Shown here: piece by piece, positions 1,433 to 45,704 of the stretch
Layout of the letters: every line of letters starts with the position of its first letter
Position numbering within the stretch: position 1 is the first letter of the stretch
From: Actinomycetota bacterium
GTDB lineage: Bacteria > Actinomycetota > Actinomycetes > Actinomycetales > Dermatophilaceae
Length of the DNA: 55,922 bases
Assembly: GCA_020161845.1 (NCBI GenBank)
Contig: JAIUNK010000030.1
Coordinates: 1-55,922 of the forward strand
Reading direction: 5' to 3'
Notes under the pieces: model-generated
The model's database searches: none
What the model was told of the DNA's origin: nothing
What the model saw: the letters and a program-made list of their open reading frames with translations, nothing else
Translations under genes and position numbers: made by a program

Positions 1433-2701
1433 ATGCTCAACGATGTCATCGACGATGGAGTGATTATCGAGCGGGTCGCTGCGATCGATGTCGGGAAGGC
1501 CGAGATCGTGGTCTGTGCCCGGGTGCCCTCGCCCACCGGGCGGCGCAGCCGGGCTCAGGAGGTGCGTAAGTTCGCCACGATGACCCCGGCGCTGATGGAG
1601 TGCAGCGACTGGCTGTCCCAGCTGCAGGTCACCCGGGTGGTCATGGAGGCCACCAGCGATTACTGGAAGCCGGTGTTCTACCTGCTCGAAGCCGCTGGGT
1701 TCGAGACGTGGCTGGTCAACGCCAAAGATGTCAAACACCTGCCCGGTCGTCCCAAGACGGACACCTTGGACGCGGTGTGGCTGTGCAAGGTCGCCGAACG
1801 GCAGATGCTGCGGCCCTCGTTCGTACCACCCGAACCGATCCGCAAGCTGCGAGACCTGACCCGCTACCGGGTCGACCTGATCAACGAACGGAGCCGGGAG
1901 AAGAACCGCGTCGAGAAACTCCTGGAAGACGCCGGGATCAAACTGTCCGTGGTCGCCTCGGACATCTTCGGCGTCTCCGGGCGGGCGATGCTGGCCTCCC
2001 TGGTCGCCGGCGAACGCGATCCCAAGATGCTGGCGGGACTGGCCCGTACCCGGATGCGGACCAAGATCCCCGCCCTGCAGGAGGCCTTCGTCGGCCGTTT
2101 CACCGATCATCACGCCTTCCTGCTGGGCAAGATGCTCGCCCGGATCGACCGGATCGACGCCGACCTGACCGACCTCGACACTCAGATCGAGGCGATGATC
2201 AGCCCTTTCGCTGAGGCTGTCGACCGGTTGGACACCATCCCCGGCATCGGCGCTACGGCGGCCCAGGCGATCATCGCCGAGATCGGGGTGGAAATGACCC
2301 GCTTCCCCACCCCGGCGCATTTGGCCTCCTGGGCCCGGTTCGCCCCCGGGGTCAACCAGTCCGCCGGCAAAACCAAGGGCAACGGCTCCACCGGCCACGG
2401 CAACCCCTACCTCGCCCGCGCCCTGGGCGAGGCCGCCCTCGCGGCCTCCAAGACGGACACCTTCCTCGGCGAGCGCTACCGGCGGATCGCCCGCCGCCGC
2501 GGCAAGAAGAAGGCCCTGGTCGCCGTCGGACGCTCCATCCTGGTGATCCTCTGGCACCTACTCAACGATCCCGACGCGGTCTTCATCGACCTCGGCCCCG
2601 ACCACTACACCAACCGCGTCGGCACCCAACGCGCCGTCCGCAACCACATCCGCGGCCTGAACGCCCTGGGCTACACCGTCACCCTCAACCCGGCCGCCTG
2701 A
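1433..2701 (+). CDS. IS110-family transposase (DEDD), apparently intact
   Basis: This is a 422-residue recombinase-type transposase of the IS110 family. The N-terminal RuvC-like domain shows the four acidic positions: D19 (AIDVGK), E72 (VVMEATSDYW), and D110 and D113 (KTDTLDAVWL). The C-terminal Tnp_20 domain has the helix-hairpin-helix text IPGIGATAAQAIIAEIG and the serine-bearing segment PGVNQSAGKTKGN. The ATG at 1433 is preferred over the upstream in-frame ATG at 1406, because GGGAGG at 1422-1427 sits 5 nt before it. Length and motifs look full, so the protein could be functional. Family members excise and insert with an RNA guide (bridge RNA) encoded next to the gene, here most likely upstream. 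Confidence 0.93.
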   Translation: MLNDVIDDGVIIERVAAIDVGKAEIVVCARVPSPTGRRSRAQEVRKFATMTPALMECSDWLSQLQVTRVVMEATSDYWKPVFYLLEAAGFETWLVNAKDVKHLPGRPKTDTLDAVWLCKVAERQMLRPSFVPPEPIRKLRDLTRYRVDLINERSREKNRVEKLLEDAGIKLSVVASDIFGVSGRAMLASLVAGERDPKMLAGLARTRMRTKIPALQEAFVGRFTDHHAFLLGKMLARIDRIDADLTDLDTQIEAMISPFAEAVDRLDTIPGIGATAAQAIIAEIGVEMTRFPTPAHLASWARFAPGVNQSAGKTKGNGSTGHGNPYLARALGEAALAASKTDTFLGERYRRIARRRGKKKALVAVGRSILVILWHLLNDPDAVFIDLGPDHYTNRVGTQRAVRNHIRGLNALGYTVTLNPAA

Positions 2702-6019: not shown

Positions 6020-6060
6020 CCGATAGTCTTTATGTACACGATGTACATCGAGACTATCGG
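6020..6060. promoter_or_regulatory. Palindromic operator of the toxin-antitoxin operon
   Basis: A perfect 10-bp inverted repeat CCGATAGTCT (6020-6029) / AGACTATCGG (6051-6060) encloses a second motif, ATGTACACG followed by ATGTACATCG, whose right copy is part of the palindrome GATGTACATC. It lies 58 bp before the antitoxin ATG, in an AT-richer patch that also offers -10-like text. Nested symmetry fits autorepression by the antitoxin dimer or by the toxin-antitoxin complex; this is inference. Confidence 0.75.
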
Positions 6061-23426: not shown

Positions 23427-23522
23427 TCCCTGCACCACTGCCCGCTCTGGTCCGCCCCGGGACAGCGGACGGCCCCGACGCCGGTGGGCGTCGGGGCCGT
23501 CGGGGGGAGGCGCCGAGGACGA

Positions 23523-25566: not shown

Positions 25567-25722
25567 ACGCCGCGCGGACGTGGCCTAGGACCCCCGAGCT
25601 GGGTCACGCCCGCCGGTTTTGTGAAGAGGACGCTGGCGCACCCCCTGGCTGCCGGCGTCCGGACCGGGCTCACCCTGGCACCGGTCGCCGAAGGGCCGGG
25701 TCGATCATCGACCCGGCCCTTC
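25567..25722 (+). ncRNA. Candidate small RNA with two C-rich hairpins and a terminator
   Basis: Downstream of the promoter the + strand can fold GGACCC...GGGTC (about 25590-25611, with CCCCC) and GACGCTGGC...GCCGGCGTC (about 25629-25660, with CCCCC in the loop), then the perfect terminator hairpin at 25690-25722. Two C-loop hairpins plus a terminator recall the actinobacterial 6C RNA, but the C runs here are five long, so the family is not established. Citrate synthase downstream has its own leaderless promoter, which argues that this is a separate transcript. A short open frame from 25621 runs through the hairpin and lacks a ribosome-binding site. Confidence 0.45.
25690..25722 (+). terminator. 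Perfect 16-bp hairpin terminator
   Basis: The arms GAAGGGCCGGGTCGAT (25690-25705) and ATCGACCCGGCCCTTC (25707-25722) pair at all 16 positions with a single central base. There is no U tract, as is common for actinobacterial terminators. It lies 104 bp before the citrate synthase start and ends the candidate small RNA. Confidence 0.75.
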
Positions 25723-37233: not shown

Positions 37234-38187
37234 TCAGCGCAACCGCAGCCGCGCCCACACGCCGAGGTGGTCGGTCCGGGGCACGGCCACGGTGCCGGCG
37301 TCGACCACCTGGAATCCGCTGGACAACACGTGGTCGATCTGGGTGAACGCCGGCAGCCGCCGGCTGGACGGCCAGGTCGGGGTCCATGCTTGACCGGTGA
37401 CGCGGAGGGCATCGTCCATGCCGGCGGCCAGCTCGCGGAACGCCGGATGCGGCCAGCCGGAGTTGAAGTCGCCGGCCACGATGAGCGGGCCGGTCGTCTC
37501 CTGGCGCCACCGCGCCAGGGCAGCCAGGTCCGAGCGCCACGCGGGGAGCTTCGCCTCCGAGGTCGGGGACCGCGGGTGGACACCCCGCAGCGTCACCGGG
37601 TGGCCCGCCACGTCCAGCCGTACGATCGGCTGCTGCGGCTTGGTCGGATCGTCCTCGTGGTCCGCGTGGTCGTCGCGCTGCAGCACGGTCATCGGGAGCC
37701 GGGACAGCACGGCCGTGCCGGCGGATTCGGGGAGGCTGCGGCCGGAGTCGTACGGCAGCTCGGCGCGGATCCCGGTGCGACCGCTCAACCGGGCCACAAA
37801 CCGCTGGTCGGCCTCGGTGAGCACGAGGACGTCGATGCGCCGCTGCGCCACGATCGTGGCGATGCTGGCGACGTCGGCCATGCCGTATTGCACATTCAGG
37901 GCCAGCACGGTGAGCTCCGGGCCGTCGGCGGGCCGCTGCGGTGCCGGGCGCAGGACCGGCACCATGGCGACCGCGCTGACCAGCAGGGCGATCAGCGCAA
38001 TCAGGACCGCGCGGCGGGCGCGCAGCAGCGCGGCGAGCCCGGCCACCGCCAGGGCGGCGGCCGGGACCACCAGGTAGAGCGCCTGGGCCATCGGGGCCGG
38101 GCCGGTGAGGTCCCACCACCACACGGTGGCGGCCAGCAGCGCGATGACGGCGAGAACCTGCAGCGCCCGGCCAACGCGGGACTTCAC
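37234..38187 (-). CDS. Membrane endonuclease/exonuclease/phosphatase (EEP) family protein
   Basis: The product has 317 residues. Three N-terminal helices (VLAVIALLAATVWWW, ALYLVVPAAALAVAGLAALL, VLIALIALLVSAVAMVPVL) are followed by an EEP domain outside or at the membrane: LTVLALNVQYGMAD, VLVLTEADQRF, LRGVHPRSP, VAGDFNSGWPHPAF, TQIDHVLSS and RTDHLGVWARL, holding the expected Asn, Glu, Asp, Asn, Asp and His. GTG 38187 overlaps the peptidase stop by 4 nt. Similar proteins are annotated as VanJ-like; the substrate is unknown. Confidence 0.88.
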   Translation of the reverse strand: MKSRVGRALQVLAVIALLAATVWWWDLTGPAPMAQALYLVVPAAALAVAGLAALLRARRAVLIALIALLVSAVAMVPVLRPAPQRPADGPELTVLALNVQYGMADVASIATIVAQRRIDVLVLTEADQRFVARLSGRTGIRAELPYDSGRSLPESAGTAVLSRLPMTVLQRDDHADHEDDPTKPQQPIVRLDVAGHPVTLRGVHPRSPTSEAKLPAWRSDLAALARWRQETTGPLIVAGDFNSGWPHPAFRELAAGMDDALRVTGQAWTPTWPSSRRLPAFTQIDHVLSSGFQVVDAGTVAVPRTDHLGVWARLRLR

Positions 38188-40178
38188 CAGATCCGGACCC
38201 GCTCCTGCTCGGGCAGCCACAGGGCGTCGCCCTCGCGGACGTCGAAGGCGTCGTAGAACTCCGTCAGGTTGCGCACGATGTTCGCGCGGAACTCCCCCGG
38301 CGAATGCGGATCGACCGCGAGCAGCCGCCGGGCTTCCTCGGGGCGGGCCGCCATCCGCCAGATCTGCGCCCAGCCGGCGAAGAACCTCTGGTCGCCGGTG
38401 AGATCGTCGATGATCGGGGCGTCGGCGTCGCCGCGGGCGATCCGGTAGGCCAGGTGCGCGATGGTCACCCCGCCGAGGTCGCCGATGTTCTCCCCCACGG
38501 TGAGGGCGCCGTTGACCTGCTCCTGGGGCAGGTCGCGCGGGTGGAAGCCGTCGTACTGCGTGATGAGCCGGCCGGCGCGCTCGTCGAAGGCCGCCCGGTC
38601 CGCCTCGGTCCACCAGTCGAGCAGGGCGCCCGCGCCGTCGTACCGGCTGCCCTGGTCATCGAAGCCGTGCCCGATCTCGTGCCCGATGACCGAGCCGATC
38701 GCGCCGTAGTTGACGGCGTCGTCGGCGTCGACGTCGAAGAACGGCGGCTGCAGGATCGCGGCGGGGAAGACGATCTCGTTCATCCCCGGGTTGTAGTAGG
38801 CGTTGACCGTCTGGGCGTTCATGAACCACTCGTCCCGGTCGATCGGGGCGCCCAGCTTGCGCCACATCCGATCGGTCTCGAAGGCATACCCCGCCCGCAC
38901 GTTGCCGAGCAGGTCGTCCTCGCTGAACGTCAGACCCGTGTAGTCCCGCCACCGGGCCGGGCAGCCGATCTTCGGGGTGAACGCGTCGAGCTTGGCCAGG
39001 GCCTTCTCGCGGGTCGCGGGCGTCATCCAGGCCAGCTCACCGATGTCGCGGCGGTAGGCCTCGACCAGGTTGCCGACGAGTTCGGCCATCCGCTCGCTGG
39101 CGTGCGGCGGGTAGTGGCGCTCGACGTACAGCCGTCCCGCGTCCTCCCCCACCAGCTGGTCGACCAGCGCCACGCCGCGCTTCCAGCGGTCGCGCTGCTG
39201 CGGGGTGCCGGACAGCGTGCGTCCGTAGAAGTCGAAGTTCTCCGCGACGAGCGCGTCGTGCAGGTAGGGGGCGTAGGCGTGCAGGATCGCCGAGCGCAGC
39301 CACGCCCGCCACGACGCGACGTCAGCTTCCTGGAGCTGCTCGGACAGGGCCGCCAGGAAGGAGGGCTGCCGCATGACGAGGGCGTCGTACGCCGTGTCGG
39401 GGGCGCCGGTCGCCGCGAGCCACTCCCGCCACGGCACGTGTGGCGCCTGCTCGGTCAGGCCGGCGAGGTCGGTGAGCGTGTAGCTCTTGACGGCGTCGCG
39501 TCGGGTCACCCGGTCCCAGTGGCCGGCGGCGAGCCGGGTCTCCAGGCCCATCACGCGCTCGGCGTCGGCGGCGGCGGTGGCCTCGTCGGCGCCGCCGATG
39601 GCGAACACCTTGGTCAGATGCGCCAGGTACGCCGTGCGGATCGGCGCATAGGCGTCCTCGCGGTAGTACGCCTCGTCGGGCAGCCCGATCCCGGACTGCT
39701 CCAGGAAGGTGACATAGCGGTCGGGCTGGCCGGGGTCGGTGTTGACGTAGGCCTCGACGAGTCCGCCGACGCCCTCCCGCTGCAGCCGCCCGAGCAGCAC
39801 CATCGCGGCCGCGCCATCCTCGACGCCGGCCGCCTCGGCCAGCAGCGGGGCGATGGGGGCCAGGCCCTCGGCCTCGGCCCGGGCCTGGTCGAGGAAGGAC
39901 GCGCAAAGGGTGCGGGCCAGGGCGCCGGGCCGGCGCGCGTCGGCGGTGACCGGATCTGCGGCGCTGTCGCCGTTTGCTGCGACATCGTCGCGGTTCTCGG
40001 TCAACAGCGTCCGCATGTCCTCCTCGGCGCGCTCGCGCAGGATGTCGAACGTGCCATAGCGGCCACGGTCGGGCGGCACCGGGGTGGCGGCGATCCACGC
40101 GGCGTTGACAAACCCGAACAGGTCGTCCTGCGGCCGGATCGTGGTGTCGATTCCCGCCAGGTCGATCCCTGAGCGCAT
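38184..40178 (-). CDS. M13-family zinc metallopeptidase (neprilysin/PepO/Zmp1-like)
   Basis: The product has 664 residues, close to the roughly 663 of mycobacterial Zmp1. The zinc site is H500-E-I-G-H504 (GHEIGHGFDDQG) with the third ligand E563 (GENIGDLGG), and NAYYNPGMNEIVFPAAILQPPFF precedes it, a substrate-binding landmark of M13. ATG 40178 gives MRSGIDLAGIDTTIRPQDDLFGFVN and lies 6 nt after AGGAGG on the minus strand (40185-40190). No signal peptide is visible. The stop overlaps the EEP gene start. Confidence 0.95.
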   Translation of the reverse strand: MRSGIDLAGIDTTIRPQDDLFGFVNAAWIAATPVPPDRGRYGTFDILRERAEEDMRTLLTENRDDVAANGDSAADPVTADARRPGALARTLCASFLDQARAEAEGLAPIAPLLAEAAGVEDGAAAMVLLGRLQREGVGGLVEAYVNTDPGQPDRYVTFLEQSGIGLPDEAYYREDAYAPIRTAYLAHLTKVFAIGGADEATAAADAERVMGLETRLAAGHWDRVTRRDAVKSYTLTDLAGLTEQAPHVPWREWLAATGAPDTAYDALVMRQPSFLAALSEQLQEADVASWRAWLRSAILHAYAPYLHDALVAENFDFYGRTLSGTPQQRDRWKRGVALVDQLVGEDAGRLYVERHYPPHASERMAELVGNLVEAYRRDIGELAWMTPATREKALAKLDAFTPKIGCPARWRDYTGLTFSEDDLLGNVRAGYAFETDRMWRKLGAPIDRDEWFMNAQTVNAYYNPGMNEIVFPAAILQPPFFDVDADDAVNYGAIGSVIGHEIGHGFDDQGSRYDGAGALLDWWTEADRAAFDERAGRLITQYDGFHPRDLPQEQVNGALTVGENIGDLGGVTIAHLAYRIARGDADAPIIDDLTGDQRFFAGWAQIWRMAARPEEARRLLAVDPHSPGEFRANIVRNLTEFYDAFDVREGDALWLPEQERVRIW

Positions 40179-40283
40179 GAGGAACCTCCTTCGTCGTCTC
40201 GAGGGACAACCTACGTGGCGGTACCGACAGCCCCCAAGCGAGCAAGGGCGACACCGGACGTCGTCCGCCGACGCCCTTCGACA

Positions 40284-40327
40284 AGCTGTGGCAAAGGGCG
40301 GTGCCGGCACCGCCCTTTGCCACAGCT
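40284..40327. repeat. Perfect 44-bp palindromic element, copy 1
   Basis: All 22 bp on each side of the centre at 40305/40306 are complementary; the core is GGTGCCGGCACC and the outer end AGCTGTGGC / GCCACAGCT. It is followed by AAGGAC. It lies between the methyltransferase stop (40396) and the peptidase start (40178), both minus strand. See copy 2 at 41099-41134. Confidence 0.95.
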
Positions 40328-40395
40328 AAGGACACCGGCCGACGGGAAGGCACCGGCCGACGCCAGCGCGCGGCCACGCTCCAGGTGGGCCGGAG

Positions 40396-40998
40396 TCACG
40401 GAGCGGGTTTCTCCCACGTCACGAGGTAGCGACCGAGCCACAGCCGGCGATACGAGCGGCCGGGCCACTCGTCCGCGGTCATCCGATTGACCTCGCCGTA
40501 GGTGTGCGGTGGGGGCCAGACGATCGGGGCGGAGTGCTCCCATGTCCGTCGGACGCCGGTCGCGACGGCGATGCCGACAGCCGAGAGCAGCGACATCGGC
40601 CAGTCCAGCGGGCCGGCCTTCGCCAACCCGACGACGCCCACCGTTCCGCCGGGCCGGGTCAGGTCGCCCAGCCGACGAAGGGCCGCCACCGTGTCGGGCA
40701 TGTGGTGCAGGGTCGCGTTCGACACGACGACGTCGAAGCTGCCGGGCTGCAGCGAATGGGTGTGGAGGTCGCCCTGGGTCCAGTCGACGGGTTTCTTCGG
40801 CCACCGCGCGCGGGCTCGGAGTACGACGCCTTCGTCCGCGTCGAGGGCGACTACATGGCAGCCGGCATCTGCGAGCCGGGCGCTCAGGAACCCATCGCCG
40901 CAGCCCACGTCGAGAACGCGCTGGCCGGGGCGGGTCAGCCTGACGAGGAGTCGGTCGTAGTGGATATTGAGGTTCCACGGCTCCCGGGTCCGATCCAC
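40396..40998 (-). CDS. Class I SAM-dependent methyltransferase
   Basis: The product has 200 residues. The SAM site reads RVLDVGCGDGFLSARLADAGCHVVALDAD, then DVVVSNATLHHMPDTVAALRRLGDLTRPGG (both in segments), typical of Methyltransf_11/25 proteins. The C-terminal part (HTYGEVNRMTADEWPGRSYRRLWLGRYLVTW) is as in small uncharacterised actinobacterial methyltransferases. GTG 40998 (VDRTREPWNLNIHYDRLLV) is chosen because TAGCCT (minus strand, 41006-41011) lies 7 nt upstream; the longer frame to 41121 would translate the palindromic repeat. The substrate is unknown. Confidence 0.85.
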   Translation of the reverse strand: MDRTREPWNLNIHYDRLLVRLTRPGQRVLDVGCGDGFLSARLADAGCHVVALDADEGVVLRARARWPKKPVDWTQGDLHTHSLQPGSFDVVVSNATLHHMPDTVAALRRLGDLTRPGGTVGVVGLAKAGPLDWPMSLLSAVGIAVATGVRRTWEHSAPIVWPPPHTYGEVNRMTADEWPGRSYRRLWLGRYLVTWEKPAP

Positions 40999-41051
40999 GC
41001 TGGCGAGGCTACCGGCGTCACAACCGGCCACCGTCGCGAACCATTGTCGTC

Positions 41052-41134
41052 GAGTGCGGCAAAGGGCGGCGCCTGTGCCCGATGTTGACGTGCTGAGTGC
41101 GGCGAAAGGCGGTGCCGGCACCGCCTTTCGCCGC
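41052..41134. repeat. Palindromic element copy 2 (41099-41134) with a preceding half copy
   Basis: 41099-41134 is a perfect 36-bp palindrome starting GCGGCGAAAGG with core GGTGCCGGCACC. It is followed by AGCTAAGGAC, the same tail as copy 1. A half copy, GAGTGCGGCAAAGGGCGG at 41052-41069, lies 43 bp before the matching GAGTGCGGCGAAAGGCGG of copy 2. Copy 1 and copy 2 differ at three stem positions, each matched by the complementary change in the other arm. Confidence 0.92.
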
Positions 41135-41198
41135 AGCTAAGGACTCGAGTGTCAGCCCTTCCGGGGTGGGAGTGGGGCGTGCAGCCGAGGGGGCGCGG

Positions 41199-42968
41199 TT
41201 ATTGGCGGCGGCTCCAGCGGATGGCGCCGTCGACCAGGCGCCCGGCGAGGCCGCGGGTGTGGACGTCGGTGTGGTGTCGGGTACACAGCAGCGCAAGGTT
41301 GTCGACGTTGGTCTCGCCGAGGTCTGTGGTCCATTCGCGCAGATGGTGGGCCTCGCACCAGGACGATGGTCGGTCACAGCCGGGGAAGGTGCAGCACCCG
41401 TCCCGTAGCCGCAGGTAGCGGACCTGATCCGGGGAGGCGAGCCGGGATGCCCGGCCCAGGTCGAGGACCGCGCCGTCGGTGCCGAGTACCGCTGGGATGA
41501 TCCGGGCATCACACGCCAACCGCCGAACCGTGGCCGGGGTCAGCGGAGTGCCGAACCCGTCCAGCCCGTACCCCCGCCCCGCCCCTCGACCCGTCGACTC
41601 ATTTAACCTGGCCGACCCCGCTGTCCCCGCACTGCCCGTTGACCTGGCCGACCCCGTCGACCCCGCGCTGCTCGCCGACCCCGCGCTGCCCGTCGACCCG
41701 GCGCCGCCCCTCGATGCCTGCACGCCGCACGAGTCCTCCCGGGCGCCGTCTTGGCCTCGGGGCTGAGCGCAGTCGTCGCCGGCGCTCTCGGTGTGGTCGT
41801 CGCCGTCGCTCTCGGTGTGGTCGTGGCCGGCGCTCTCGGCGCAGTCCTGGCCGGCGCGCTGAGCGCGGTCCTGGCTGGTGCGCTGGGCGTAATAGGCGCG
41901 GACCTTCTCGGCCAGCAGGTCGTGGTCGATCGTGATGATGATCTGGGCCTTGGCCGCCGAGCCCGGCCGGACGTGGCCGCTCAACGTCGGGTCGGTTGCC
42001 ACGATGCGGGCCATCTCGATGATCGCGTCCAGGTTGCGCTGCTCCGCGGTCCGAGTATCGACTTCGCCGTCCGCGGTCGGGGTCGGTGCGGCCAGCGCAT
42101 CCAGCGCGGCTTTGAGGGCGGCGTAGTCGTCGTTGGTCATCGCGTACCGACCGACCCACATCCCGGTGCCGTCCTTGACCGGGGTGGTGAACCGCCGCTG
42201 GCGGTGCAGCTCCTTCTGCTGCTCCTCGAAGTCACCCTCGTCGCCGTAGCTGGCGATCAGCGCTTCTTTGAGGCTGCCCAACTGGGACGCGGAGGCCCCG
42301 GTGGCGGCGTGCGCGATCAATTCTCCCGCCGCCGCCTCCCACCAGTCGGTGGGGATTTTGACGGCCAACGTCGACAAGTCAGCCCCGAGTCGGGCGCCGA
42401 CCGTCAGGGAGATCCGACCGTCCCGGACCGCCGCGGTCAGCGGCGCCAGCTCGGGCCGGCGGGACTGCTCCCAGCACGTGCGGTAGGTCCCCGCTACCCC
42501 GGCCGTGACTGGCGCACCGGCCGCGGCGGCCTGGTCCTGCACCCACGCGGTGATCCTCGGACCGATCGGCCGCGGCGAATCATCCGAGGCGGCGACCACC
42601 CCACGGGCGACGGCCTCGGCCAGCACGGCCGCCGAGGCCCCTTCTGCCAACGCCCGCAGCGCCACCAAGTCCCCGAACAACCCCGCCAGCTCGTCCGTCG
42701 GCACCAACGCCAACACGTCGCCCAGCGCGAGAGGCCCAGCCGTTCCACCCCTGATCGAGCCGGCACCCGTGCCGATAGAGTCAGCTGCTGCGCCGTCGTT
42801 GGGGTCGGGTGCTCCGCCGCTGATGGGGTCGGCCGAACTCAATGCCCCGCCCGTCAAGGTGCCTAATCCGGCTTGCACCCGACGTACCGTCTCCCGCATC
42901 CAGCACGCCGCCTCGTACGACGACAACCCAGCCACCGGAGCCGGCGCGAAGGTGTCCGTCGAGCTCAT
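41199..42968 (-). CDS. DUF222 / HNH endonuclease-domain protein (13E12 repeat family)
   Basis: The product has 589 residues. The DUF222 region covers residues about 75-340 (LAGLFGDLVALRALAEGASAAVLAEAV, LTVGARLGADLSTLAVKIPTDWW). The C-terminal HNH nuclease reads LRLRDGCCTFPGCDRPSSWCEAHHLREWTTDLGETNVDNLALLCTRHHTDVH (in segments), with two Cys and the His-Asn-His residues. Between them lie two low-complexity blocks: a DD-HTES-type repeat near residue 390 and a Gly/Ser/Ala/Thr repeat near 430-455. ATG 42968 lies 5 nt from TATAAT (leaderless) and an inverted repeat flanks the promoter. Family members are numerous in actinobacteria and often DNA-damage induced. Confidence 0.93.
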   Translation of the reverse strand: MSSTDTFAPAPVAGLSSYEAACWMRETVRRVQAGLGTLTGGALSSADPISGGAPDPNDGAAADSIGTGAGSIRGGTAGPLALGDVLALVPTDELAGLFGDLVALRALAEGASAAVLAEAVARGVVAASDDSPRPIGPRITAWVQDQAAAAGAPVTAGVAGTYRTCWEQSRRPELAPLTAAVRDGRISLTVGARLGADLSTLAVKIPTDWWEAAAGELIAHAATGASASQLGSLKEALIASYGDEGDFEEQQKELHRQRRFTTPVKDGTGMWVGRYAMTNDDYAALKAALDALAAPTPTADGEVDTRTAEQRNLDAIIEMARIVATDPTLSGHVRPGSAAKAQIIITIDHDLLAEKVRAYYAQRTSQDRAQRAGQDCAESAGHDHTESDGDDHTESAGDDCAQPRGQDGAREDSCGVQASRGGAGSTGSAGSASSAGSTGSARSTGSAGTAGSARLNESTGRGAGRGYGLDGFGTPLTPATVRRLACDARIIPAVLGTDGAVLDLGRASRLASPDQVRYLRLRDGCCTFPGCDRPSSWCEAHHLREWTTDLGETNVDNLALLCTRHHTDVHTRGLAGRLVDGAIRWSRRQ

Positions 42969-42973
42969 AGCCC

Positions 42974-43030
42974 ATTATATCGAACACATCACCGATCACG
43001 CAAGCACGAGGTGCCCGTTATGTTCGATAT
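42974..43030 (-). promoter_or_regulatory. Near-consensus promoter of the HNH gene with flanking inverted repeat
   Basis: On the minus strand TTGCGT (42998-43003) and TATAAT (42974-42979) are spaced by 18 nt and the ATG follows 5 nt after TATAAT. ATATCGAACA (42977-42986) overlaps the -10, and its inverted copy TGTTCGATAT lies at 43021-43030, just upstream of the -35. Each arm contains TCGAAC/GTTCGA, the half-site of the actinobacterial LexA box, but the spacing is not the canonical 4 nt. Confidence 0.65.
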
Positions 43031-43169
43031 TAAATACGGACTCACTCGGCAGACGCCACGAGCGGCGCTGAGTGGCACACGAATTCGACCCGCATAGAAC
43101 TGTCATCCAGATCACAAGTCGGGTTATGACATTAGTGGTGGTGAGTTGAGGCCTCCCAGCGCGCCGCCG

Positions 43170-45704
43170 TCAGTTGGTGGCTGTCGGCTCCTGGGCCAGC
43201 CGTCCGGGCCAGGCGCTGACGCGGCCCACGAGGGCGATCAGCGCCGGCATCAGCACCGACCGCGCCACGAACGTGTCCAGCAGGATGCCCACGGCCATCG
43301 CGAACGCCAGTTCCCGGAACGCCGCCAGCGGGATCGAACCGAGCATCCCAAAGCTCACCGCCAGCACGATCCCGGCCGTGGTGATCGCGCGCGAGGTCTC
43401 GGGCATGGCCCGCAGGATGGCCTCCCGCAGCGGCAGGCGCCGGGCCTCCTCCCATACCCGGCCCGCGCCGAAGATCGTGTAGTCCGATCCGAGGGAGACC
43501 AACAGCACGGCGGCCGCGAAGGGGATGTAGAAGGTGATCCCGTCCTCGCCGCGCACCGTCTGGAATACCCAGGTCGTCAGGCCCAAGGCGGCGCCGAGGG
43601 TCAGCACGTTCGCAGCCATGAGATAGAGCGGGGCGATCACGGCGCGCAGGAACACCATGAGGATCAGCAGGTTGACCGCGACGCTGGCGATGGCGATCCG
43701 GCCGAGGTCACCGGTGGTGTCGCGCACCAGGCCCTCCGCCAGGGGCGTGTCGCCGGCGAAGGCTGCGGTGACCTCGCCCAGACCCGCCGCACCGGAGAGC
43801 GCGGGCAGCGCCGTGCGGAGCTGCGCCATGCTCGTGATGGCGCGGGCCCCGAGGGGATCACTATCGAAGACCACGAGCATCCGCGCCGCATCACCGTCGC
43901 GCGAGACCATGACCCCCGTCGGCGTACCAGAGGGGATCTGGGCCGGGCCGATCACCGCGGCCACACCCTGCTGCTTCTCGATCTGCTGCTGCAGCCGGAC
44001 CAGCGCGCCGAGATCGCGGCCGACCCCCGGGGCCTCCAGGAGCAGCGTCGTGGGCGAGGTGATCCCCGGGGCGTAGGCCTGGGCGGCGGCCGAGCTGGCG
44101 CGGACGACGGGGTTGTCCGCCGGCAGGGAGGCGGTGAACTTGGCGCCGAGCGACAGGTTCGTCAGGGCTGTGGTGGCCAGGCCGAGCAGGAGCGTGGTGA
44201 TCACGAGTGCCGTGACGGCGCCCGGGCGGCTCACCAGGATCCGGGTCAGGCGGGTGCCGGGTCGACGGCGGGCGTCGCCACCGCCGGTGGCCTCCAGGAG
44301 GGTACGGCGTACGGCGGCATCCCGCGCGCTCGCCGCACCCGCCCCGGCGTCGGCGTCGGCGCGCGGCTCGGCATCCTGACGAGGGTCGCGCTCCCGGGTC
44401 AACGCCTGGCCCGCGACTCGGCGCGGCCAGAAGATCCGCGGACCCAGGATCGCCAGCAGCGCCGGGATCAGCGTGATCGAGACGCTCAGCCCGATCAGGA
44501 TGGTGATGGCCATCGAGGGCCCGAACGCCCGATAGAACGGTGTCTCCGCGACCATCATGGTCAGCGTTCCGGCCGCGACCGTGAATCCGGCGGCCAGGAC
44601 GATGTGGGTGTGCGACAGGACGGCGCGGCGGACCGTGGCGCGTCGGCCGCCGCCCTCGGCGAGCGCGGTCGCATATCCCGTCACGTAGAAGATCGTGTAG
44701 TCGGTGACCACCCCCAACAGCAGCGCCACCAGCAGGGGTTGCAACTCCGCCGGAGCACTGACGCCGACCTGCGCGGCCGCGACTGCGGCGAGCCGGAGGG
44801 TCACCACGACGGCGACGCCCGAGGCCCCGAGCGCGAGCAGGGGTACGACGAGAGAGCGGAAGGCGACCCCGACCAGGACGAAGATGGCGAGCAAGGTGAG
44901 GATCTCCACCCGATGCAGGTGGTCGGTGAGGATCCGGGCCTGCTCCGCCCGGGCCGGCACCGACCCCGCCACGCCCACGACCCGGTCGACGTCCCGGTCG
45001 AGGTAGCGGTCGATGTAGCGCTGCGCCGCGGCCTGCTGATCGCCAAAACTGCTGATCGGATCCATGAACAGGTAGGTGAGGACCGCCGTGCCCTGCTCTG
45101 GCCCGGTGGGCGTCAACCGGACGGCGTTGGGATAGGGCAAGGCGCCCAACAACGGCCACGGCTGCCGATTCTGCACCGTGCCGACCGCGTCGAGCACCGA
45201 CTCGGCCTGCACGAACGGGTCCATCCCGGCGGGGTCGTGCTGCACGATCGAGGTGCGGCTGGACAACGGGTATCCGAAGATCTCGACCGAGCGGATCTCC
45301 GCGCGGATGGCCGGGCTGTTCGCGGGGATCAAAGCGGCCGTCTCATCGGCGGTGGGCGCGGGAGCAGGCGTGAGCAGGCAGAATGCGCACACCAGCAGCC
45401 AGGCTGCGACGATCGGCCAGCGGCCCACATAGGTTGCCGCGGCGAGGAAGCGGCTGAACGGCGCCTGCGGCCGACCGGCGGCGGGGCTGGACCGCGGTCC
45501 GGCGCCGCGGGCCGAGCCGCGGACCGATCCGCGGGTCGAGTCGCGGGTCGAGTCGCGGGTCGAGCCGGACCGGCCGGTGAGGTGTCGGCGGCGCTGTAGC
45601 GGTCGCAGCCGCGACGGCGGGCGCCGCCCCGAGTCGGCTTCGGACCCGGCCACCCGCATCCGTCGCCCGACGCCCCCGCGCTGCGACTCTGCGTCGGCGT
45701 TCAT
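43170..45704 (-). CDS. MMPL-family RND transporter
   Basis: The product has 844 residues with 11-12 helices in two halves. Typical MMPL text: IPANSPAIRAEIRSVEIFG, LLALGASGVAVVVTLRLAA, LLGVVTDYTIFYVTGYATAL with the GxxxDY proton-relay motif, then ASLPADNPVVRASSAAAQAYAPG and VSLGSDYTIFGAGRVWEEAR in the second half. ATG 45704 (MNADAESQR) is preferred, with CGGAGG (minus strand) 9 nt upstream; an ATG at 45731 is also open. The N-terminal tail has a repeat of RDST units encoded by a 12-bp repeat. It exports a lipid or amphiphile across the membrane; the cargo is unknown. Confidence 0.93.
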   Translation of the reverse strand: MNADAESQRGGVGRRMRVAGSEADSGRRPPSRLRPLQRRRHLTGRSGSTRDSTRDSTRGSVRGSARGAGPRSSPAAGRPQAPFSRFLAAATYVGRWPIVAAWLLVCAFCLLTPAPAPTADETAALIPANSPAIRAEIRSVEIFGYPLSSRTSIVQHDPAGMDPFVQAESVLDAVGTVQNRQPWPLLGALPYPNAVRLTPTGPEQGTAVLTYLFMDPISSFGDQQAAAQRYIDRYLDRDVDRVVGVAGSVPARAEQARILTDHLHRVEILTLLAIFVLVGVAFRSLVVPLLALGASGVAVVVTLRLAAVAAAQVGVSAPAELQPLLVALLLGVVTDYTIFYVTGYATALAEGGGRRATVRRAVLSHTHIVLAAGFTVAAGTLTMMVAETPFYRAFGPSMAITILIGLSVSITLIPALLAILGPRIFWPRRVAGQALTRERDPRQDAEPRADADAGAGAASARDAAVRRTLLEATGGGDARRRPGTRLTRILVSRPGAVTALVITTLLLGLATTALTNLSLGAKFTASLPADNPVVRASSAAAQAYAPGITSPTTLLLEAPGVGRDLGALVRLQQQIEKQQGVAAVIGPAQIPSGTPTGVMVSRDGDAARMLVVFDSDPLGARAITSMAQLRTALPALSGAAGLGEVTAAFAGDTPLAEGLVRDTTGDLGRIAIASVAVNLLILMVFLRAVIAPLYLMAANVLTLGAALGLTTWVFQTVRGEDGITFYIPFAAAVLLVSLGSDYTIFGAGRVWEEARRLPLREAILRAMPETSRAITTAGIVLAVSFGMLGSIPLAAFRELAFAMAVGILLDTFVARSVLMPALIALVGRVSAWPGRLAQEPTATN

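Follow-up and report, generated by a model that had tools for sequence, protein, structure and literature searches.

A dispersed, loop-less palindrome family in one actinobacterial genome, probably mobile and linked to an expanded set of DUF222 genes

The DNA analysed here (the window, 55,922 nt) contains palindromes that belong to a real dispersed repeat family, so far observed in one genome only. The repeat is approximately 40–52 bp long and consists of two inverted arms (consensus about CGTTAACTGYGGCRAARGGCGGTGCC; outward arm consensus GGCACCGCCTTTCGCCGCAGTTAACG) which abut without a spacer. The family is probably mobile and tied to rearranged junctions, and the explanation that we favour, with moderate confidence, is that of a lineage-specific, non-autonomous palindromic mobile repeat which also marks rearranged junctions. 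Its tie to the expansion of a DUF222 gene in the same genome is unexpected and constitutes a new link.

Two full copies and a half copy lie in the window (Table 1). In a palindrome scan of all 55.9 kb, copy 1 scores 22 and copy 2 scores 19, with the runner-up at 15.5, and palindromes in five simulated windows (second-order Markov) score at most 12. A sequence-only reading of this region had described both copies as perfect palindromes which differ at three stem positions, each difference being matched in the opposite arm. Both statements hold, and copy 2 is slightly longer than the 41099–41134 given to it. The half copy of that reading is also present, as a single arm, and runs beyond the 41052–41069 first assigned; it precedes the left arm in copy 2 by 43 nt. 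The reading had further seen a common right-hand tail, and AGCTAAGGAC does occur at both copies (which are 87% identical across 47 nt, tail included), but as the outer portion of the arm and not as a separate signal. This outer part has the outward consensus CAGTTAACG, reads CAGCTAAGG in copies 1 and 2, and occurs on the opposite side too in some copies of the family. Other strong hairpins in the window, at 6020–6060, 23468–23501 and 25690–25722, are perhaps ordinary terminators or regulatory sites.

Table 1. Features in the window and, in the last row, the second palindrome found elsewhere in the host genome
Feature	Coordinates	Strand	Remarks
M13 peptidase gene	38184..40178	-	Peptidase_M13_N 6.7e-108; conserved in three congeners
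Copy 1 (C15a)	40284..40327	.	Perfect 44-nt palindrome, loop-less; arms AGCTGTGGCAAAGGGCGGTGCC and GGCACCGCCCTTTGCCACAGCT
AGCTAAGGAC tail of copy 1	40324..40333	+	Outer end of the right arm
SAM-dependent methyltransferase ORF	40396..41121	-	Methyltransf_11 2.6e-21; between copies 1 and 2
Half copy	41052..41073	+	Lone left arm, 22 nt; 86% identity to the left arm of copy 2
Copy 2 (C15b)	41098..41135	.	Perfect 38-nt palindrome; three paired differences versus copy 1
AGCTAAGGAC tail of copy 2	41135..41144	+	
DUF222 gene, 589 aa	41199..42968	-	Subfamily A1; copy 2 starts 63 nt past the stop codon
Second palindrome	L112:about 1985-2046		Also L113, L114 and L116; L108 with one core change

In the host draft genome (G000; 4.39 Mb, completeness 100, contamination 4.4), the window forms contig C15. 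A genome-wide count, which the sequence-only reading had called for, gives 24 full copies and two half copies, one on C24 and the other in the window, so the window copies are not the only ones. The copies were gathered by BLAST and by core and half-arm searches, with the addition of the copy behind the C56 gene; core matches at C38:48820, C57:12528 and C74:25000 were excluded because their flanks are unlike those of the palindrome family. When the genome is searched for a 30-nt stem with up to three mismatches, 23 places are found, compared with zero for a reversed-pattern control. Many of the 24 full copies have unrelated flanks, and 21 of 40 alignment columns are invariant across all 24. 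Two near-duplicate pairs (C17/C49b and C20/C56a) may be strain variants, the assembly being a draft with the contamination given above. The C20 and C56 contigs (L099 and L103) carry diverged copies of one segment (DUF222 gene, palindrome and neighbours), possibly reflecting a mixture of strains in the assembly.

Searches beyond the host were negative. The stem (up to three mismatches) has no match in the 57 relatives searched, which include three congeners, and an exact scan of an 84,980-species collection (which may not include the host) with a degenerate pattern gives no matches. Plasmid and phage records yield no palindrome match at E up to 1. A lone IMG/VR match was rejected: it is a 22-mer within reading frames of a viral contig and comes without the outer arms. 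Among the titles and abstract starts listed from an open-access library, none describes this palindrome family.

Most sites are intergenic, i.e., 20 of 25 (the 24 full copies and the C24 half copy) fall outside ORFs as called by a crude GC-frame ORF caller. For the 22 sites with genes called on both sides, the arrangement is convergent in 7, tandem in 11 and divergent in 4, on rough strand calls. The flanking genes are unrelated to each other and include those for superoxide dismutase, an ABC transporter, MTHFR, alanine racemases, der/EngA and cytidylate kinase, among others. The methyltransferase beside the window palindromes is probably incidental, the recurrent neighbour being a DUF222 gene; its start is uncertain, and its longest ORF extends into copy 2.

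Comparison with congeners shows extra DNA at several of the junctions that hold a copy. For example, nnr and alr are neighbours at most 300 bp apart in 7 of 10 relatives searched, and in the host copy C55 lies between them: the span between the same anchors is 381 nt, versus 229 nt in G001 and 220 nt in G003, a difference of approximately 150–160 nt which exceeds the palindrome alone. The der–cmk junction, which holds C38c within a larger repeat, is 627 nt long in the host and 91 nt in G001 and G003. Elsewhere this gap measures 139–204 nt in three genomes, 224 nt in G002 and 790–991 nt in 4 of 10 genomes, and because these last exceed the host's value, extra DNA at der–cmk is not unusual per se. 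On contig C28, the ABC–PNP spacing is approximately 1.3 kb in the host versus approximately 21 nt in G001 and G003 (in G002, an ABC match was not found at the equivalent place). This insert has a palindrome near either end and, between the two, an ORF of 340 aa (L117:2838-3860) without a Pfam or NCBIfam match, whose end region may resemble Vsr/DUF559-like nucleases. The superoxide dismutase gene by the third C28 copy has its congener matches at other places.

In the window itself, the similarity of the DNA to congeners breaks off before copy 1 is reached, a little upstream of where the M13 peptidase starts. The congener stretches compared give no tblastn match to the methyltransferase, the DUF222 protein or the MMPL protein. 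The congeners are only approximately 65–80% identical to the host in DNA sequence, so insertion points cannot be placed exactly at any of these junctions. With no match in 57 relatives and with junctions that are shorter in congeners, the repeat looks mobile.

Some copies (C5, C38b, C38c, C50a and C65a) lie inside a larger repeat of approximately 285 nt. It carries a second near-perfect palindrome, approximately 62 nt long, with a core (TTTTGGCACCATGGTGCCAAAA) that is exact in four of the five copies. As read from the alignment, this second palindrome has a G/C stem difference that forms a pair in three copies and a mismatch in the other two.

DUF222 genes occupy 15 loci in the host genome (21 matches), and nine of these form one close subfamily, with 82–89% protein identity to the window member in the five that were aligned. 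The subfamily is absent from three congeners at E up to 1e-20, and the best match in other relatives scores 143 bits versus at least 347 for each of the nine; in a wider scan, 127 stretches fit the peptide pattern and none was confirmed. A palindrome lies 1–126 nt beyond the stop codon in six of the nine members (those on C15, C20, C31, C56, C63 and C65), the members without one being C12, C74a and C77. A 5' fragment of a subfamily gene at the edge of contig C30 was not counted because its 3' end is out of view. With 24 copies placed at random among an assumed 4000 or so genes, 0.054 such placements are expected, giving a Poisson P of approximately 3e-11 for six placements, or 2.5e-5 if they are counted as three independent junctions. 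C15b, C65b, C20 and C56a have flanks in common and may be one event.

This association could mean that a DUF222 unit has its right end, or a cleavage or recombination site, at the palindrome, with break repair copying gene and palindrome elsewhere; solo palindromes would then be sites left or seeded by DUF222/HNH-like activity. We consider this unlikely, although several observations fit it besides the placement statistics. Subfamily and palindrome are both missing from the three congeners, and on the far side, the units at C15, C65 and C20 are similar only as far as the palindrome. From the AGCTAAGGAC tail onward into the DUF222 gene, the flank of copy 2 is 96% identical to that of C65b over 302 nt. 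C65b has its DUF222-side flank in common with C15b and its opposite flank in common with C31, so the palindrome joins flanks in differing combinations. The C-terminus of the window protein is likely HNH-like, judging by its sequence, but its HNH match of 16.1 bits is below the Pfam cut-off of 21.4, and cleavage is putative. When a structure database was searched by sequence with the subfamily, ten matches fell in the low-complexity linker and a single weak one at the C-terminus.

Other counts weigh against a DUF222 site. As many as 18 of the 24 palindrome copies have no directly adjoining DUF222 gene, one third of the subfamily (three of nine) has no palindrome, and the link is partly accounted for by common descent of the unit. 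A terminal palindrome is not a general property of DUF222 genes: none of 40 genes from six other genomes is followed by one of this kind, the best palindrome score behind them being 10 versus 13–20 in the host. These scores overlap with background, as 1 of 134 background windows reached 15.5, beating three of the six DUF222-linked copies (13–15). A more ambitious version makes the DUF222/HNH-like protein and the palindrome a new mobile system, in which the protein would nick or cut dispersed palindromes and break repair would spread gene, palindrome and neighbours, shuffle flanks and keep the arms alike; we give this somewhat less credence still.

The DUF222 genes have further features of their own. 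In the window member, the variable linker (41603–41935) contains tandem repeats with units of 18–36 and 24 nt, and linker length varies among paralogues. An upstream block with CGAACATAAC, at 42969–43130 in the window, is common to the window gene and the other subfamily genes, some of which also have TGTTCGATA or TGTTCGAGA 40 nt later, and it may control DUF222 genes. Upstream of the C77 gene is TGTGATCTGTATCACA, which we take to be CRP-like. A LexA-type box (in the form that we assumed for this motif) could not be established upstream of the subfamily, where the best candidate has 2 mismatches in 12; a box with one mismatch occurs at a non-subfamily gene, C28a.

The sequence-only reading had proposed that the fold of these elements, rather than their sequence, is kept. 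A corresponding functional account is that they are RNA hairpins retained because they terminate transcription or protect mRNA 3' ends, with pairing under selection. The window copies suit it well: their predicted RNA folds on the + strand are very stable (-42.4 kcal/mol, z -9.2 for copy 1; -36.6 kcal/mol, z about -6 for copy 2), and both lie 63–68 nt beyond a minus-strand stop codon. Most of the family does not. Across the inner 19 pairs, only C15a, C15b and C20 are fully paired, which leaves 21 of 24 copies with one or more mismatches between the arms; with G-U pairs allowed, full pairing is seen on at least one strand in 8 copies and on neither strand in 16. Uncompensated stem changes are therefore present in most other copies and, by the rule that the sequence-only reading set for itself, weigh against a structure-selected family. 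Between C20 and C56a, whose surroundings are duplicated, there are four changes, two of them compensated and two not.

Other results do not help this account either. Promoter and terminator scans of 40150–41250 call no sites, four of the 22 sites are (by crude calls) between divergent genes, and there is no match in relatives. Given the lack of a called terminator and the divergent and unrelated gene settings, it is unlikely that every copy acts as a terminator, and we regard selected RNA hairpins in general as improbable. An Rfam search of 38000–43500 gives four matches, all below their gathering scores (e.g., MIR158 with 32.6 versus 67 bits).

Within a copy, one arm is related to the other, though not through strict compensation. 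In a 40-column alignment with 21 distinct rows, standard pairs make up 92.1% of 420 cells versus 90.5% after shuffling, and 33 of the 420 remain unpaired even with G-U allowed. The stem covariation test suggested by the sequence-only reading does find paired changes in excess, with 14 double-changed cells versus 6.5 (sd 2.3) in shuffles, a value reached by none of 500. However, 80 of 500 shuffles reach the observed count of pairs with a double change (5 of 20), and the pair types are not unusual either (105 of 500 shuffles), so two of five covariation measures are unremarkable; kin sequences can also outdo such shuffles without any structure. Among 17 non-redundant copies (omitting C38b, C38c, C50a, C65a, C49b, C65b and C28y), 303 of 340 pairs match versus 290.9 (sd 3.8, p 0.0014), with no excess at outer positions 21–26 (39 of 102 versus 46.3 shuffled). 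Over positions 1–26 in all 24 copies, arms match at 480 of 624 positions versus 471.1 (p 0.14), which is not significant. The C24 half copy was omitted from all covariation counts.

The paired changes thus amount to a weak general signal that falls short of proving a conserved fold. The arms of inverted repeats are homogenised when template switching occurs between them (according to the available portions of PMC8604942 and PMC7202029), so selection on the fold is not needed for the arms to match. Arm homogenisation accounts for the covariation as well as selection does.

A candidate site for a dimeric DNA-binding protein (a regulator or nucleoid protein), spread by duplication, is very unlikely: it would agree with the perfect loop-less dyad symmetry and the 21 invariant columns, but the flanking genes are unrelated and in all orientations, congeners have no match, and symmetry of up to 44 nt exceeds the usual need of one dimer.

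We therefore return to the mobile repeat as the preferred explanation. Such a repeat would spread in a MITE-like manner, with its arms serving as ends for a transposase or recombinase, and its copies may then act as sites of DNA breakage and rejoining. Arm matching would arise by copying one arm from the other, through hairpin or template-switch correction or through conversion between copies, which most simply accounts for it without selection on an RNA or single-stranded DNA fold. Some findings sit less well with a mobile repeat: no transposase with matching ends is seen, no target-site duplication is consistent among the 24 copies, and simple segmental duplication could account for the flanks that DUF222-linked copies have in common.

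Bacterial dispersed palindromes are often attributed to RAYT transposases. This family, however, is loop-less, resides in a RAYT-less genome and is tied to an expanded gene whose product carries a domain of unknown function, DUF222. If the DUF222 link is causal, DUF222 proteins gain a directly testable substrate. If it is hitch-hiking, the family shows compensatory-looking palindrome changes arising without strict selection on a fold.

The sequence-only reading likened the elements to REP-like or mobile palindromic repeats, and in the loose sense of a REP (a dispersed, mostly extragenic palindrome) the family is one. It is dispersed, palindromic, mostly intergenic and found in junctions that are shorter in congeners, but no linked transposase was found: Y1_Tnp (PF01797) has no hits in the G000 draft assembly, and the same control search is positive in 5 of 14 genomes. 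With REPs and REPINs mobilised by RAYT (TnpA-REP), the family shares being short, palindromic, dispersed and mostly intergenic, with some paired stem changes. It differs in that its arms abut with no loop and form 19–22 pairs in the best copies; stems of GTAG-family REPs are 6–13 bp in the part of PMC3733652 that was available. It also has about two dozen copies, whereas REPs usually have more than 100, as stated in the accessible text of PMC2817692. GTAG is beside 1 of 24 copies (C31) and CGTC near 1 of 24 (C55). A RAYT-type REP is thus ruled out by the lack of Y1_Tnp, the abutting loop-less arms and GTAG at only one foot of 24.

MITEs and other IS-derived miniature elements resemble the family in their inverted arms, non-autonomous look and dispersal, and the outer ends here are often YTAA. 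The family looks like a MITE reduced to its two ends. Unlike such elements, the host palindrome lacks an internal spacer, and neither a source IS sharing its ends nor a clear target duplication was found. TTAA, which is self-complementary, is on both sides of C28z, C49b and C17, and other copies differ. A half-arm search (up to two mismatches) showed no other element evidently flanked by two such arms, in an assembly whose contig breaks may lose repeats.

Palindrome-bearing transposon ends and attC sites offer another likeness, in that a long hairpin follows the gene at a unit boundary, and one insert in the host has a palindrome near either end. The bulges of attC sites confer polarity, whereas the host palindromes are near-perfectly symmetric and without bulges. 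The copies examined have neither an integrase nor an HUH transposase next to them.

The remaining comparison is with REP13E12 of mycobacteria. In the portion of PMC10589994 that we could consult, REP13E12/HNH endonuclease/DUF222 is listed among repetitive elements in mycobacterial reads, and the likeness is that of a DUF222 gene multiplied in an actinobacterium. What may set the host apart is the frequent presence of a palindrome from a dispersed family at the end of its DUF222 unit.
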